DNA from: Natrinema caseinilyticum
Lineage (GTDB): Archaea; Halobacteriota; Halobacteria; Halobacteriales; Natrialbaceae
NCBI RefSeq assembly: GCF_024227435.1
Contig: NZ_CP100445.1
Location: forward strand, 1,423,369-1,487,368
Length of the DNA: 64,000 bases
Direction: 5' to 3'
In this document: piece by piece, positions 23,837 to 31,905 of the stretch
Numbering within the stretch: position 1 is the first letter of the stretch
Layout of the letters: each line of letters begins with the position of its first letter
The notes under the pieces: model-generated
Seen by the model: the letters and a program-made list of their open reading frames with translations, nothing else
The model's database searches: none
What the model was told of the DNA's origin: nothing
Translations under genes and position numbers: made by a program

Positions 23837-25750
23837 TCACCGCTGACCGGGATCGCGGGGGGCGTCGAAGTCGGTGGACGGGTCCTGTGGGTGCTGTCCG
23901 ACCGGTGTCTCGGGATCGAGTGGGGGTGATTCGACCGTCGGCGAGAGACGGCCACCGGCACTGGCCGCTCTCGCGTCGCCGAGCCGGCGCCGTATCTCGT
24001 CGAACCCGTCGTAGAGGACGGAGAGCCGGTCGACTTTTTCGCGGGGGTTCGCGTGGAAGCGCCAGGGGCTTCCCGTCTCGAAGTGGACGTCGATCTGTCT
24101 CACGAGCGAGTGGCCGAGGTACGTGGCGAACGTCCGCGGTCGGATGCCGATCGCATCGCAGTACGCGACGATGGATTCGGCGACGCGGACCGAATACGGC
24201 GTGTCCTCGAGCAGGGTCGCTCGAACGCCGGTCTCGAAGCCCCCGAACGCGAACGCGGCGAGTTTCAGCGTGAAGAAGCCCGGATCGGCGGCGGGATTCG
24301 ACTCGAGGGCGCTGTACTCCCAGTCGATGACGCGCTCGATCGAGCCGTCGTCGGCGACGAGCACGTTTCCCGGGTGATAATCCCCGTGGGCGGGAACCGC
24401 GGGGAACTCGAGCGGGTCGGAGACGGTCGGCGGCGCGACGTCGAATCGGTCCGGCGCGAGTTCCCGACGTGCGGCGCCCGGCGACCGCCTCCGGCGCGGG
24501 CCCGCGTGGGCCAGTTGTAGCGTTCGGATCCAGCCCAGTCCCGTCTCGAGGACGCGGACGAACGCGTCCGGATCCGGAGGGGTCGGCCATCGAGTGACGA
24601 CGTCCATGAGCGGCGTTCCAGAAGCGGGAGATTCAGACAGCACTGGGCCGAGCGCCGACTCCTCGAGTGCCACGTCGGGGAGCGTTCCCGCGATCGGTTC
24701 GCCCGAGGCAGTGAGTTCCGAGAGAGTCGATGCCGCCCGTTCGTTGTATCGGCTGTGTGTCGGGGTGTTGGGCACTTTTCGGACGGTCTCGACGTCGCCG
24801 TCCGAGAGTTCGAAGACGATCGATCTGTTCGCACCCCGACGCAGTACCCGCGTCGTGTCGGGTTCGTCGGCCGACGGCGCATCGGATTCCGCCGACGAAT
24901 CCGTTCGACAGACCGCGACGTAGCTCGGATAGGACTGTGCGACGAGTCCGAGTTCGGTGGCCAGGGTCGCACCGCGGCGAACCAACCCGGAGCCGGTCGA
25001 ATCCGTCTCGATCGAATCGAGCACCCACTCGATCGCGTCGGGATCGTCCGCCGGAACCGCCCACCGGTACCGTGATCCGCCGGGAAGCAATCCGAAGAGG
25101 TCGACGTCGTCGAATCCGCGGGTCTCGAGTGCAGCGACGAACCGCGAGGGAATCGATCGCCAGACGGCAGTCGGCGAGAGACCGGTGTCACGTTCGGATT
25201 CCGACTCGAGGCCGACGAGATCGGTCACGCCGCTCGTCCGAGGCCACCCGTCGATCTCGGTCACGAGCGTTCCGCCGTCGGCGAGCGACGCGGCGAGTCG
25301 ATCGACGTGGTCGAAGAACTCGCGGTCCGGTGGCCGCGGTCCCGTCGCGACGACCGTGTCGAACGAGCGACCGTCGATGGCCGACGCAATATCGTCGCCG
25401 ACGATCGAAACGACGTCGGCGCCGTCGAGTTCCGGTCTGGACTCGAGGAGCCGACGGCCCGTATCCGTGGGCTGGTAGCTGGAGACCCTATCGGCGAGTG
25501 ACAGGAGAAGCGGCGTCGTCCGTCCCCAGCCGGGCGTGCAGTCGAGGCAGTGGCCGGAGATGTCGTCCGCGACGAGCGCGTACCAGCTGTCGTATCCGAC
25601 GCCGAAGAGGGACGTCAGTACCGAACGGGGCTCCGAGGCCGCCTCGAGCAGCGAATCGACCGCAGCGTTGGGTTCGTCCCGTGCGAACCGGTCGACGAAC
25701 GACCGAACGGCCGGCGCATCGGTATCGGAGTGGACGGGGTTCGAGTGCAC
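23837..25750 (-). CDS. Methyltransferase-like / aminoglycoside-phosphotransferase-type kinase fusion
   Basis: A 637-residue protein from GTG 25750. Residues 55-260 resemble a degenerate Rossmann methyltransferase (HCLDCTPGWGRTTPLLLSLAD; DGADVVSIVGDD; FDTVVATGPRPPDREFFDHV). Residues 290-590 are a protein kinase-like APH domain: nucleotide lobe with ANRSIVFELSDGD, catalytic loop HGDYHPGNVLV (His, Asp, Asn at the expected spacing) and metal-binding VIDWEYS. The C-terminal tail is Pro/Asp-rich. Fused methyltransferase and kinase domains are found in some glycan-terminating enzymes, and the neighbouring flippase supports a glycan role. The N-terminal domain has an unusual glycine motif (TPGWGR), so methyl transfer is uncertain. 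Confidence 0.8.
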   Translation of the reverse strand: MHSNPVHSDTDAPAVRSFVDRFARDEPNAAVDSLLEAASEPRSVLTSLFGVGYDSWYALVADDISGHCLDCTPGWGRTTPLLLSLADRVSSYQPTDTGRRLLESRPELDGADVVSIVGDDIASAIDGRSFDTVVATGPRPPDREFFDHVDRLAASLADGGTLVTEIDGWPRTSGVTDLVGLESESERDTGLSPTAVWRSIPSRFVAALETRGFDDVDLFGLLPGGSRYRWAVPADDPDAIEWVLDSIETDSTGSGLVRRGATLATELGLVAQSYPSYVAVCRTDSSAESDAPSADEPDTTRVLRRGANRSIVFELSDGDVETVRKVPNTPTHSRYNERAASTLSELTASGEPIAGTLPDVALEESALGPVLSESPASGTPLMDVVTRWPTPPDPDAFVRVLETGLGWIRTLQLAHAGPRRRRSPGAARRELAPDRFDVAPPTVSDPLEFPAVPAHGDYHPGNVLVADDGSIERVIDWEYSALESNPAADPGFFTLKLAAFAFGGFETGVRATLLEDTPYSVRVAESIVAYCDAIGIRPRTFATYLGHSLVRQIDVHFETGSPWRFHANPREKVDRLSVLYDGFDEIRRRLGDARAASAGGRLSPTVESPPLDPETPVGQHPQDPSTDFDAPRDPGQR

Positions 25751-25770
25751 ATTCCCGCTACTGACTGTAT

Positions 25771-25779
25771 CGTATATTG
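25771..25779 (-). promoter_or_regulatory. TATA box of the fusion kinase gene
   Basis: On the minus strand CAATATACG lies 21-29 bases before the GTG start, a spacing that predicts a leaderless or nearly leaderless mRNA. Confidence 0.5.
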
Positions 25780-25934
25780 ATATGACCGTATTACCGGTAT
25801 ATAGTGCTCAATAATGGTATTGTTACCCGCCGCTGACGACGGCGAAAGACGGGAGAACGGGCGTCGGTGGCGCGGCTCGTGGTACTCGACGGTGGTGGGA
25901 ACGAGGTCGATCGCTCGAACACGGTGGCGACCGA

Positions 25935-27401
25935 TCAGGTGAGCAAGGCGAGCGTTTTCCGCGGGTCGACCAGTCCGCTCAGCGTCACGAGAACGCCCCA
26001 GATGAGGACGCCGAGACCGATGACGCCGGCGAGGGCGACGATGTTCGACACGTGCGGGACGAAAAACAGCACCGCGAGGCCCATACTCGCGGAAATAACG
26101 GAAATGAGCGCGACGGAGCGGGCGACCCGAGCGTAATCGAACTCGATCTCCCGATACATCACGGCGACGTTGACCGTCGTATAAATGCCGTAGGTGACCA
26201 CGGTCGCGAACGCGGCGCCCGGAACACCGAAACGCGGGATCAGAACCACGTTGAGACAGGCATTAGCGGCGGACGTCACCCCCTTCGCGACCGCACGGTC
26301 GGACGCCCGTCCCAGGTAGTCCAGGGCGTTGGTCGTCACGTTGGTGATCGCCTGAAAGACGACGTAGACCGCCATCAGCTGGAGGACGGGGGCGGCCCCG
26401 GCGTAGTCGGCACCGAACACCAGTCGGACGGCGGGATCGGCGACGAGGATCAACCCGACGGCCGCGGGAACGTAGAGGAGGAGGACGTACTGCAGCGTCG
26501 ACTCGTAGATCCGGGCCGACTCCTCGAGCGCGTCGGTCGCTTTCTGCTCGCCGTAGGTAGGCGAGACAGAGAAACCGAGCGAACCGGCGGGGACGAGGAC
26601 GAACTGGGAAATTTGCTTGCTGAGAACGTAGTAACTCACCGCGAGCGGAGTGAGGAAGAATCCGACGAGGATCGTGTCGATTCGGTTGTCGAGGATACTC
26701 GCGCTGGTCGACGCGGTCAGCGGGATGCTGTACCTGAACATCCGGTTACGAAGGGATTTCTCCCCACCGTCGTCGTCGTAGGCCGTGTAGAATCGGCGGT
26801 AGAGAGCGACCAGTGTGACGATCGCCGCGAGAGCCGCGCCGACCACGTACCCGAGCATCGCACCGACCACGCCCAGTCCGAAGACGGTCAGTGCGATGAC
26901 GAAAGCGACCCGCGTGACGTTGTTGACGACGCTGACGAGCGCGCTGAGTTCGACCCGATTGAACCCCTGAAAGAGCGTCTGGCCGTAGGAGTTCAGCGAC
27001 TGAAAGACGAGGTAGACGCCGCCGACCGCCAACAGCGTCGCTGCCTCCGGCGTGTTGAGGAGGCCCGCGAGACGCTCGTGGCCGACGACCATCGTACTGG
27101 TGACGATGGCGATCAACACCAGGCGATATCCCAGCGACGTCCGGAGGATGTACGGAATTTTCCCGTCGTCGGTCTCCTTGTACTCGGAGATATAGCGCGC
27201 AGCCGAGCGAGCGCTTCCGAGGTCGGTCACCATGCCCGCGACGCCCAGGACCGCGACGACGAAGAAAAACAGCCCGTACTCGTCGGGGGTGAGCAGGAAC
27301 CGTGCGAGCAACAACATCAACGCCCCGTTGGCGACGTTCGTGACGAGGCGAGCCCCGAGCGTCGCCTTGAAGCCGTCGACGATTCGCTCAGTGACCGACA
27401 T
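25935..27401 (-). CDS. Oligosaccharide flippase, Wzx/RfbX type
   Basis: A 488-residue MATE/MOP-superfamily protein with about fourteen hydrophobic helices. Signature stretches are LARFLLTPDEYGLFFFVVAV, RNRMFRYSIPLTASTSASIL, LVGFFLTPLAVSYYVLSKQI and NVVLIPRFGVPGAAFATVVT. Such proteins flip lipid-linked saccharides across the cytoplasmic membrane during exopolysaccharide or glycoprotein biosynthesis. No glycosyltransferase is adjacent in this window, only the kinase fusion downstream on the same strand (185 bases away). Confidence 0.92.
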   Translation of the reverse strand: MSVTERIVDGFKATLGARLVTNVANGALMLLLARFLLTPDEYGLFFFVVAVLGVAGMVTDLGSARSAARYISEYKETDDGKIPYILRTSLGYRLVLIAIVTSTMVVGHERLAGLLNTPEAATLLAVGGVYLVFQSLNSYGQTLFQGFNRVELSALVSVVNNVTRVAFVIALTVFGLGVVGAMLGYVVGAALAAIVTLVALYRRFYTAYDDDGGEKSLRNRMFRYSIPLTASTSASILDNRIDTILVGFFLTPLAVSYYVLSKQISQFVLVPAGSLGFSVSPTYGEQKATDALEESARIYESTLQYVLLLYVPAAVGLILVADPAVRLVFGADYAGAAPVLQLMAVYVVFQAITNVTTNALDYLGRASDRAVAKGVTSAANACLNVVLIPRFGVPGAAFATVVTYGIYTTVNVAVMYREIEFDYARVARSVALISVISASMGLAVLFFVPHVSNIVALAGVIGLGVLIWGVLVTLSGLVDPRKTLALLT

Positions 27402-30058: not shown

Positions 30059-30736
30059 ATGCGAGACCTGAACATCGCGCTCCTGACGATCGGCAGCCTG
30101 ACCCTCGTCTTGAGCCTCGTCTCCGGATTGCTACAGGACAGGGCCTACCTGCCCTCGGAGCCGATGGCCGCGGCGGCCCTGGGCGTCGTCCTCGGCGGCG
30201 TCAAACTGCTCGGGAGCGACGGCATTCTCGCGGTATTCGTCGCCGGACTCCTCTTTAACCGGTTCGCCGAGGCGACCGACGAAGTCGACGAACAGAAGGT
30301 CCAGGAGACGGTGCTTCGCCTGTTTACGGTCCCGATCTTCGTCCTCTTCGGCCTGGTGATGCCGTGGAACCAGTGGCTCGCCCTCGGCTGGTCGGGCGTC
30401 GCGCTCGCGGGTTGTATCCTCCTGTTCCGGCGCGTGCCCACGATGGTCGTGTTCGACCGCACCGTCGATCCGATCGGTACTCGCGGCGCGCTCTTTGCCG
30501 GCTGGTTCGGGCCGATCGGTATCGCGGCGATCTTCTATGCGACCGTCGCCCACCGATTCCTGGGCGCCGAGATCGTCTGGGCGGTGACCAGCCTCGTCGT
30601 CGCGAGTTCGATATTCGTCCACGGGATTACGGCCACGCCGCTGACGAAATTGTATGGCCGCTCGAGCGGACACGCCCAGCGACAATCGGAGGATCGAGAC
30701 GAAACCGACTCGTCGTCGACGTTCGCCAACGTCTGA
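30059..30736 (+). pseudogene. CPA1-type Na+/H+ antiporter with a large internal deletion
   Basis: A 225-residue product from ATG 30059. The N-terminal helices ALLTIGSLTLVLSLVSGLLQ and LPSEPMAAAALGVVLG match helices 1-2 of NhaP-type antiporters. The next residues GVKLLGSDGILAVFVAGLLF correspond to a helix in the second half (the usual D/G-D-G-L-LAVFVAG motif), and the rest follows to the normal C-terminus. About 170 residues, including the ion-binding ATDP and ND motifs of the middle helices, are absent; family members are usually about 400 aa. The junction lies near 30195-30212 and is in frame. It is unlikely to transport ions, though a partner role cannot be excluded. Confidence 0.75.
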
Positions 30737-30819
30737 GATCGGCGACGCGGATGCGGGTCCGGGGCGAGCCGACGCGTTTCGGACCCGTAAACACACGGAA
30801 CTGGAAGCTCCCAGAAACG

Positions 30820-31905
30820 ATGGAACGGACGGTCGTCCTCGGGTGCGGCGAAGCGGGATTGATCGCGGCGGCGACCCTCGAACGGGCCGACGAGACGGAC
30901 GTGGTCGTCGTCTCCGAGCGGGATTTCCACGTGTTCTCGTTTCTCCTTTACGACGTGCTCGAGGGGAAGCCGTTCGCCGACGCGTGCCTCGACCTCCGGA
31001 GCGTGTTTCGCGAGACGGACGTCACCTTCGTCCAGGGTGTCGCCGACGGGGTGGACGTATCGAACCACACCGTAGAACTCCGGAGCGGGGCGCTGAGTTT
31101 CGATACGCTCCTGATTGCGGTCGGCGGCGTGACGGCGTACTCGATCGACGATCGGAGACACGTCTCCGATATCCGGACCGACGCACGCGAGATACGTGAC
31201 GGAGTGAGGACGCCAGACGTTCGCGACGTCGTCATCGTCGGCGGGGGACCCGTCGGTGTCGAGACGGCCGCGACGCTCTCGGCCATCTCCGAACCCGTCG
31301 ACGCGACGCTCTCGGCCATCTCCGAACCCGTCGACGCGACGCTCCTCACGTCGAGTCACCGTTTGCTCCCGGACTTTCCGCCGCGGGCGAGTCGACTCGC
31401 CGAACGACACCTCCGCCGACGGTCGGTCGACGTTCGATCGGGCGCTCGAGTCAACGACGTAACGGAGAACCGCGTCGTACTCGACGGCGGCCGCGCCGAG
31501 CGAAGCGACCTGACCATCTGGGCGGGGGGCGTCCGACCGAATCCGGTGATCCAACGGTTCGGCCTCCCAGTGACCGACCGCGGCCTGCGAGTCGATCCAT
31601 TCCTCCGCTGCGATGGGGCCGACGACGTGTACGCAGCCGGCGACGTGATCGATTATCCTGGAAAAGTAAACGACGGCTACTCGGCGGGACTGGAAGCCAG
31701 AACCGCTGCAAAGAACGTCGTTCGTGGCGTTCGAGGACGTCGGCCGAGAGAACACGACGTCCGATGGCATCCGAGAATCGTACACCTCGGTGGCAACGCC
31801 GCGATCATCGCGATCGACGGGATCGTTCACGCCGGTCGGGGCCCGGCACTCCTTCGAACCGTCGCGGTCGAGAGCTACCCGTTCCTCTGGAAGGCCCTCT
31901 ACTGA
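30820..31905 (+). CDS. NDH-2-like FAD-dependent NAD(P)H dehydrogenase
   Basis: A 361-residue two-dinucleotide-fold flavoprotein, start ATG 30820. FAD site VVLGCGEAGLIAAATL at the N-terminus (the usual GGGxxG is GCGEAG), NADH site VVIVGGGPVGVETAATL near residue 142, and the FAD-contact DDVYAAGDVIDYPG near 270. This is the type II NADH:quinone oxidoreductase/sulfide:quinone-reductase-like family; no redox-active cysteine pair is present, so an SQR is unlikely. A 33-bp tandem duplication at 31270 inserts ATLSAISEPVD a second time directly after the NADH-binding helix. The enzyme would feed electrons from NADH to membrane quinone. Confidence 0.85.
   Translation: MERTVVLGCGEAGLIAAATLERADETDVVVVSERDFHVFSFLLYDVLEGKPFADACLDLRSVFRETDVTFVQGVADGVDVSNHTVELRSGALSFDTLLIAVGGVTAYSIDDRRHVSDIRTDAREIRDGVRTPDVRDVVIVGGGPVGVETAATLSAISEPVDATLSAISEPVDATLLTSSHRLLPDFPPRASRLAERHLRRRSVDVRSGARVNDVTENRVVLDGGRAERSDLTIWAGGVRPNPVIQRFGLPVTDRGLRVDPFLRCDGADDVYAAGDVIDYPGKVNDGYSAGLEARTAAKNVVRGVRGRRPREHDVRWHPRIVHLGGNAAIIAIDGIVHAGRGPALLRTVAVESYPFLWKALY
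31270..31344 (+). repeat. In-frame 33-bp tandem duplication
   Basis: Two identical 33-base units (31270-31302 and 31303-31335), encoding ATLSAISEPVD twice, followed by 9 bases of a third unit (31336-31344). The identity of the copies shows that the duplication is recent or is an assembly artefact. Confidence 0.95.

Follow-up and report, generated by a model that had tools for sequence, protein, structure and literature searches.

Phosphorylation and methylation of the glycan end are known for bacterial O antigens exported by ABC transporters. WbdD of E. coli O9/O9a joins a methyltransferase and then a kinase in one chain and is encoded in a glycan-assembly gene neighbourhood. As described in the cited account, its kinase is eukaryotic-protein-kinase-like and is followed by about 250 residues, and the protein forms a trimer with a long coiled-coil and works with Wzm/Wzt ABC export (PMC3482155). 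In the description available for Klebsiella pneumoniae O7 ORF6, the N-terminal terminator comprises a class I methyltransferase and then an aminoglycoside-kinase-like domain, with the amicoumacin kinase AmiN as its nearest fold, and it phosphorylates, then partly methylates, the glycan end; ORF6 is set apart by its own CBM-like domain, coiled-coil, GT2 modules and ABC exporter (PMC11231755). The chain terminators described in these two sources serve ABC-exporter pathways (PMC3482155, PMC11231755). Among haloarchaea, AglP of Haloferax represents methylation in a lipid-linked glycan pathway (PMC5867893), and methylation of the DolP-glycan is reported for Halobacterium (PMC8674786). In these systems methylation falls on the lipid-linked glycan, or on a sugar of it, ahead of export or at about that stage; the cited passages name no kinase (PMC5867893, PMC8674786), and the Halobacterium paper does not name the methyltransferase (PMC8674786). 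Our search of the open-licence literature found no description of an archaeal kinase-methyltransferase beside a flippase.

The window, which is the whole stretch of 64,000 nucleotides of Natrinema caseinilyticum DNA analysed here, encodes a methyltransferase-like/APH-kinase fusion and a flippase with the following features.

23837..25750, minus strand: methyltransferase-like/APH-kinase fusion gene, 637 aa, GTG start (ORF list, Pfam, orthologue comparison)
23981..24844, minus strand: C-terminal APH-family kinase domain, residues ~303-590 (PF01636, E 2.2e-7; macrolide 2'-phosphotransferase profile match, E 2.4e-4)
24317..24325, minus strand: metal-binding DWE (D476, E478), within IDWEYS at residues 475-480; invariant in 37/37 copies
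24365..24388, minus strand: catalytic loop HGDYHPGN (H455, D457, N462), residues 455-462; invariant in 37/37 copies
24896..25648, minus strand: N-terminal class I SAM-methyltransferase-like domain, residues ~35-285, by homology to four relatives (L021, L022, L023, L025); SAM motifs partly eroded
25472..25474, minus strand: Gln93, replacing the strand-2-end Asp/Glu (ribose-binding acid of canonical relatives); Gln in 5/5 locus orthologues
25520..25552, minus strand: motif I HCLDCTPGWGR, residues 67-77; D70, G74 and G76 retained, first Gly replaced by Thr72
25791..25827, minus strand: promoter-like block (GGTAACAATACC ... CTATATACCGGTAA) immediately 5' to the fusion gene, conserved in 5/5 orthologues of the locus
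25935..27401, minus strand: MOP-superfamily (Wzx/PST-type) flippase, 488 aa (PF01943, E 6.5e-28; NCBIfam HfsF, 2.2e-24; MOP flippase PRK10459, 4.7e-23)

The initial annotation described a 637-residue two-part protein with an intact HGDYHPGN...IDWEYS kinase site, near a Wzx flippase on the same strand, and these statements were confirmed. The reading frame yields 637 residues from its GTG, a start kept in five of five same-locus orthologues (window copy counted). All catalytic residues are present, and the APH match exceeds its curated cut-off (31.3 bits against 23.2). The flippase gene lies upstream of the fusion gene, 184 nt apart. Its product scores 98.4 bits with PF01943 against a cut-off of 28.2, and a simple count from hydropathy gives it about 10 hydrophobic segments.

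Full-length copies of the fusion were defined by a profile score above 200 bits, which gave 37 copies from 33 genomes, close relatives among them not being independent; two L024 fragments, an L093 fragment and the split forms L091 and L092 were left out of this count. Across all 37, the kinase residues K325, H455, D457, N462, D476 and E478 show no variation. The kinase half shares the HGDxxxxN and IDWE-type catalytic motifs of the APH family (PF01636), for example of the macrolide 2'-phosphotransferases, its likeness to the latter being limited to about 45 residues. APH resistance enzymes are not known to have a methyltransferase half or a flippase partner.

Homology, not a solved or predicted fold, shows that the N-terminal half descends from methyltransferases. 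The Pfam search gave no methyltransferase match for the window protein, and the sole direct match of this half is a weak one to PADLOC mad2 (residues 67-173, E 1.8e-4). Relatives that are 28-32% identical to the window protein score above Pfam methyltransferase cut-offs, L022 for PF13649 and PF08241, and L021 and L025 for PF08241; the four relatives listed above match Methyltransf_11/25. Four genomes encode the two halves as separate, adjacent genes for a methyltransferase and a kinase, and the methyltransferase of the split form matches PF08241 with E 5.8e-14. The initial annotation had allowed that this half might fold as something else; the relatives and the split form place it with the methyltransferases. 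Single-sequence AlphaFold gave unusable models of the two window halves (mean pLDDT 38.3 and 33.2). The earlier wording "degenerate SAM domain" suits the changes at T72 and Q93 but needs shading, since D70, G74 and G76 are kept.

By the rule set in this analysis, the SAM-binding motifs are intact in 18 of the 37 full-length copies and eroded in the clade of the window. Parsimony places eight changes at the SAM site, at least three of them forced by starred branches, on a rough, quick tree with several long branches. Because the kinase residues are constant in 37/37 copies and the SAM motifs intact in only 18/37, the kinase appears to be the constant part and methylation the optional one; the eroded motif in the window clade also speaks against methylation as the conserved output. 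The lineage of the window has probably lost methyl transfer or keeps it only weakly, yet it retains the domain, perhaps for substrate binding. The view of the methyltransferase half as dead weight was rejected, as purifying selection is alike on both halves in six pairs (omega 0.20-0.43 and 0.22-0.42).

In 22 of the 37 copies, the fusion gene has a same-subfamily flippase (above 500 bits) within 400 nt, and 20 of these 22 flippases stand immediately upstream in the same orientation. Gaps of 3-6 nt or 4-nt overlaps occur in several pairs. Of the remaining 15 copies, two have a flippase at 544 and 637 nt; in four others the sole flippase match is weak and 2-6 kb off; and for nine, one of which lies at a contig edge, the fetched region contains no flippase. 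The pair occurs in unrelated neighbourhoods, namely a cytochrome-oxidase locus, a TFB/DUF7344 locus, an Hsp70 locus and others. In 14 genomes, the distances between fusions correlated with those between the paired flippases (rho 0.92; 0/1000 permutations as high), against a rho of 0.43 when a second flippase from these genomes, one not paired with the fusion, was compared; inside one genus, the values were 0.92 and 0.18, respectively. The adjacency, the unrelated neighbourhoods, the overlapping genes and this co-divergence together argue that the pairing is not accidental, and the co-occurrence with flippases in other genomes, to which the initial annotation had pointed, was found strongly. 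The flippase family is present in 114 of 125 family genomes against 29 of 125 for the fusion, and all 20 flippase loci examined without the fusion have neither half nearby; thus, the flippase functions without it.

Both genes could instead be passengers of fast-exchanging surface-glycan islands, travelling together without a joint function. The patchy presence of the fusion (30 of 391 class genomes), its 15 copies lacking a flippase within 400 nt, its decay to fragments beside an intact flippase (L024) and its absence beside a retained one (L095) are consistent with this explanation. However, strand-aware adjacency with overlapping genes recurs across unrelated contexts, co-divergence holds inside one genus, and the cox-locus copies keep the pair although they lie outside any evident glycan island, so that we judge mere co-travel improbable. 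Two further readings were rejected: viral cargo, as the search of viral contigs found no relative, and a defence system, as PADLOC matched only the mad2 methyltransferase stretch and, more weakly still, Cas8, and gave the flippase no match. The scan of named genomes for relatives returned a single weak match, in a Clostridiales MAG (residues 445-513).

The genes recurring near fusion copies encode GT4/GT2 glycosyltransferases, a Bac_transf sugar transferase, an epimerase, an FkbM methyltransferase and GNAT proteins; at the window locus, no glycosyltransferase lies close to the fusion gene. A fused ABC transporter (cluster c28) was observed some kb away at L074, L082 and L084.

The APH fold covers sugar and small-molecule kinases, which is compatible with a precursor kinase making a sugar phosphate (e.g. 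an anomeric 1-phosphate) for nucleotide-sugar synthesis of the same glycan, the methyltransferase half methylating the sugar. Some copies have nucleotidyltransferase, DegT and epimerase genes close by, as would suit this role, but the tight partner is the flippase and not a nucleotidyltransferase, and a precursor kinase should have different adjacent-gene partners for different sugars; we regard this role as unlikely. The kinase might also inactivate an antibiotic-like compound that the MOP-family protein exports. The macrolide 2'-phosphotransferase resemblance of the kinase half points that way, as do the membership of MATE exporters in the MOP superfamily and a weak MatE match of the window flippase; nevertheless, the polysaccharide-flippase match is far better (6.5e-28 against 1.5e-5) and glycan genes recur around the fusion family, which makes modification coupled to efflux very improbable.

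The initial annotation had compared the fusion with a WbdD-like chain-terminating cap, a reading that is only in part supported. A terminator of the WbdD or O7 ORF6 kind would set the polymer length by adding a (methyl)phosphate cap at the non-reducing end. The part of this parallel that stands is the order methyltransferase-then-kinase; the kinase halves of WbdD and the fusion both match PF01636, and glycan genes are among the neighbours. The O7 kinase, in its published description, is also closest to the aminoglycoside kinase AmiN (PMC11231755), and O7 ORF6 is, as an analogy, closer to the fusion than WbdD is, although the haloarchaeal fusions stop at the kinase and have a flippase as partner. 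Other hallmarks of a WbdD-type terminator failed. Only 0-47 residues follow the kinase in 37/37 copies, a tail length from which we infer that the C-terminal coiled-coil ruler is absent. The adjoining transporter, where the pair is kept, is the Wzx-type flippase, which alone adjoins the fusion in the window, whereas the terminators described in the cited sources use ABC-exporter pathways (PMC3482155, PMC11231755). The comparison with WbdD (E. coli HS, L094:7967-10093) gave an hhalign probability of 1.6%, and WbdD was absent from the 30 matches (E up to 1) of the fusion profile against solved structures; descent from WbdD was rejected on these two results. Methyl transfer, moreover, is probably impaired in the window clade, judging from its SAM motifs. 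Chain termination therefore seems an unlikely function.

Our tentative reading, which may quite possibly be correct, is that the gene pair forms a glycan export module in which the fusion phosphorylates a lipid-linked glycan before it is flipped. The fusion would be a soluble cytoplasmic enzyme with a constant APH-type kinase activity, acting on a hydroxyl of the lipid-linked oligosaccharide or of the outermost sugar on it. Methylation of that phosphate, or of a sugar position close by, would follow through the fused methyltransferase, a second step that would be ancestral and would persist in roughly half the relatives. The neighbouring flippase would turn the phosphorylated lipid-linked oligosaccharide to the outer face, and the phosphate modification may aid recognition or export of the glycan. 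We infer the flipped glycan as the substrate, the order of the steps and the benefit to recognition or export. The observations in favour are the two domains, the invariant kinase site, the recurrent SAM-site erosion, the close linkage and co-divergence with the flippase, the glycan genes nearby, the similar selection on both halves, the split form and the O7 precedent. Weighing against the reading are the 15 copies lacking a flippase within 400 nt, the far wider occurrence of the flippase family, the decayed or missing fusion in L024 and L095, and the window locus with no glycosyltransferase close by. It is more doubtful, though conceivable, that the phosphate or methyl-phosphate tag from an APH-type kinase-methyltransferase acts as a licence for its cognate Wzx-type flippase, the methyl-loss lineages keeping the phosphate step.

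If the licence reading is true, the flippase-linked archaeal version would be a system assembled separately from the tags of bacterial ABC exporters. A flippase-linked counterpart in Archaea would also supply a candidate enzyme family for haloarchaeal glycan phosphorylation, a step so far unassigned there, and a way into the question of how lipid-linked glycans are selected for flipping. That the methyltransferase site has been lost repeatedly while the kinase stayed invariant offers a natural experiment on which of the two steps matters.

The fusion gene starts with GTG, and this start is kept in all five orthologues at the window locus, the window copy included. The features considered here are as follows.

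23837-25750, minus strand: methyltransferase-like/APH-kinase fusion gene, 637 aa, GTG start
25791-25827: promoter-like block preceding the fusion gene, conserved in 5/5 orthologues, with a TATA-like stretch right ahead of the GTG
25935-27401, minus strand: flippase gene (PF01943, E 6.5e-28), 184 nt upstream of the fusion gene on the same strand
L091:9480-11497 (locus in another genome; also L092, L136, L137): split form, methyltransferase gene adjoining kinase gene

The C-terminal half was assigned to the APH-family kinases (PF01636, 31.3 bits; cut-off 23.2). The N-terminal half of the window copy had no Pfam match of its own, its only direct match being a weak one to a methyltransferase stretch of PADLOC mad2 (E 1.8e-4). 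This half aligns end to end with relatives at loci L021, L022, L023, and L025, the overall identity being 28-32% (alignment A1). The N-terminal half of L022 exceeded the cut-offs of both Methyltransf_11 and Methyltransf_25, those of L021 and L025 exceeded the PF08241 cut-off, and L023 scored under the Methyltransf_11 and Methyltransf_25 cut-offs. Because the window half lacks its own Pfam match and the halves of its relatives match, it is a methyltransferase by homology, single-sequence AlphaFold models being too poor to help. The two-domain protein and the nearby same-strand flippase described in the initial annotation were both recovered. Four genomes of another family carry the two halves as separate genes side by side, an APH-like kinase overlapping the methyltransferase, near beta-helix, polysaccharide lyase 14, and GNAT genes (typed in L091).

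Relatives were searched with a profile built from ten copies, which matched 29 of 125 family genomes and 30 of 391 class genomes; in a draw of 294 genomes from the phylum it matched 7, each of them from the same order. The pairing was counted over 37 full-length copies from 33 genomes, which are mutually related and not independent trials. The co-occurrence with flippases extended to other genomes, as 22 of the 37 copies had a flippase scoring above 500 bits no more than 400 nt away (upstream and on the same strand in 20, convergent in 2). Two further copies had one at 544 and 637 nt, four had a weak flippase 2-6 kb off, and nine, one of which lies at a contig edge, had none across the fetched region. 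The Natrinema caseinilyticum genome has six PF01943 matches in 4.77 Mb; thus, by a rough estimate, about one gene in 1000 would lie this near a flippase by chance.

Fusion distances followed those of the paired flippase (rho 0.92 in 14 genomes and 0.72 when all 24 pairs are included) much more closely than those of a second flippase of the same genomes (rho 0.43); within one genus, the values were 0.92 and 0.18, respectively. The pair sits at a cytochrome-oxidase locus in the window and its orthologues, and elsewhere at different loci, among them a TFB/DUF7344 locus and an Hsp70 locus. The TFB/DUF7344 locus recurs (L020, L021, L025, L065-L067, L097, L101, L102), with the flippase, GT4, and fusion genes variably present. 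It also carries secreted beta-helix-like proteins without a Pfam match and, in most cases, a protein of about 600 aa, for which a hydropathy count gave 12 hydrophobic segments in the L020 copy. At L019:11156-14403, the flippase is tandemly duplicated ahead of the fusion, the copies sharing 78% and 65% identity with that of the window.

Members of the flippase subfamily are more widespread than the fusion, occurring in 114 of 125 family genomes (E up to 1e-150). A reverse sample comprised 20 flippase loci, 18 high-scoring ones without an adjoining fusion, picked from these matches, and two lower-scoring second copies; neither fusion half was nearby in any of them. Among relatives with the window locus, L024 retains an intact flippase next to a fusion gene that has decayed, and L095 lacks the fusion gene. 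Such fragmented remnants of the fusion gene adjoin intact flippases at L024:9899-10694 and L093:9803-10291. From the loci without a fusion, the decay in L024, and the absence in L095, it follows that the flippase does not require the enzyme, which looks like an accessory to it.

The flippase-fusion gap is 158-364 nt as called in the window and four orthologues, and at other loci flippase and fusion gene often adjoin directly or overlap. The GGTAACAATACC part of the conserved block, searched as the pattern GGTAACARTACC, occurs once in its own genome. Given the TATA-like block in the gap and the abutting or overlapping genes elsewhere, the fusion gene at the window locus probably has its own promoter. 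Elsewhere in the window, a perfect 33-bp tandem repeat (2.3 copies, 31269-31344) makes an in-frame duplication of 11 residues within the ORF of a pyridine-nucleotide oxidoreductase (30364-31905).

The kinase site was intact, as initially annotated: in window numbering, Lys325, His455, Asp457, Asn462, Asp476, and Glu478 are invariant in 37/37 copies. A simple SAM-site rule (an acid at positions 70 and 93, Gly at 74 and 76) was satisfied by 18 copies, partly by 17, and not by 2, the label changing at least three times by starred branches and eight times by parsimony on a quick tree. The SAM domain had been called degenerate, which held in part; the window-locus clade has Thr or Ser72 and Gln93 and retains D70, G74, and G76. 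Omega was alike for the two halves (0.20-0.43 and 0.22-0.42, six pairs) and 0.085-0.21 for the flippase in the same comparison. The methyltransferase half has thus been kept even in copies with an altered cofactor site.

The initial annotation had suggested chain termination on a bacterial parallel, of which WbdD is the classical case (PMC3482155). The nearest published precedent is the Klebsiella O7 terminator (PMC11231755), which combines a methyltransferase with an aminoglycoside-kinase-like domain and adds phosphate and, in part, methyl to a glycan end. The kinase-methyltransferase pairing agrees with this reading; however, both terminators work with ABC exporters and have a coiled-coil, whereas the haloarchaeal fusion is partnered by a flippase, has no room for a coiled-coil after the kinase in 37/37 copies (0-47 residues), and showed no special tie to WbdD in sequence comparison. 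For these reasons, chain termination is treated as a competing explanation, not as the favoured one. The open-licence literature searched yielded nothing on an archaeal kinase-methyltransferase beside a flippase, which does not prove its absence from print. Halobacterium methylates its lipid-linked N-glycan, and the relevant passages of PMC8674786 do not identify the enzyme. Most likely, the fusion is a cytoplasmic kinase, ancestrally a kinase-methyltransferase; with acceptor, order, and purpose as we infer them, it would act on the lipid-linked glycan exported by the adjacent flippase.
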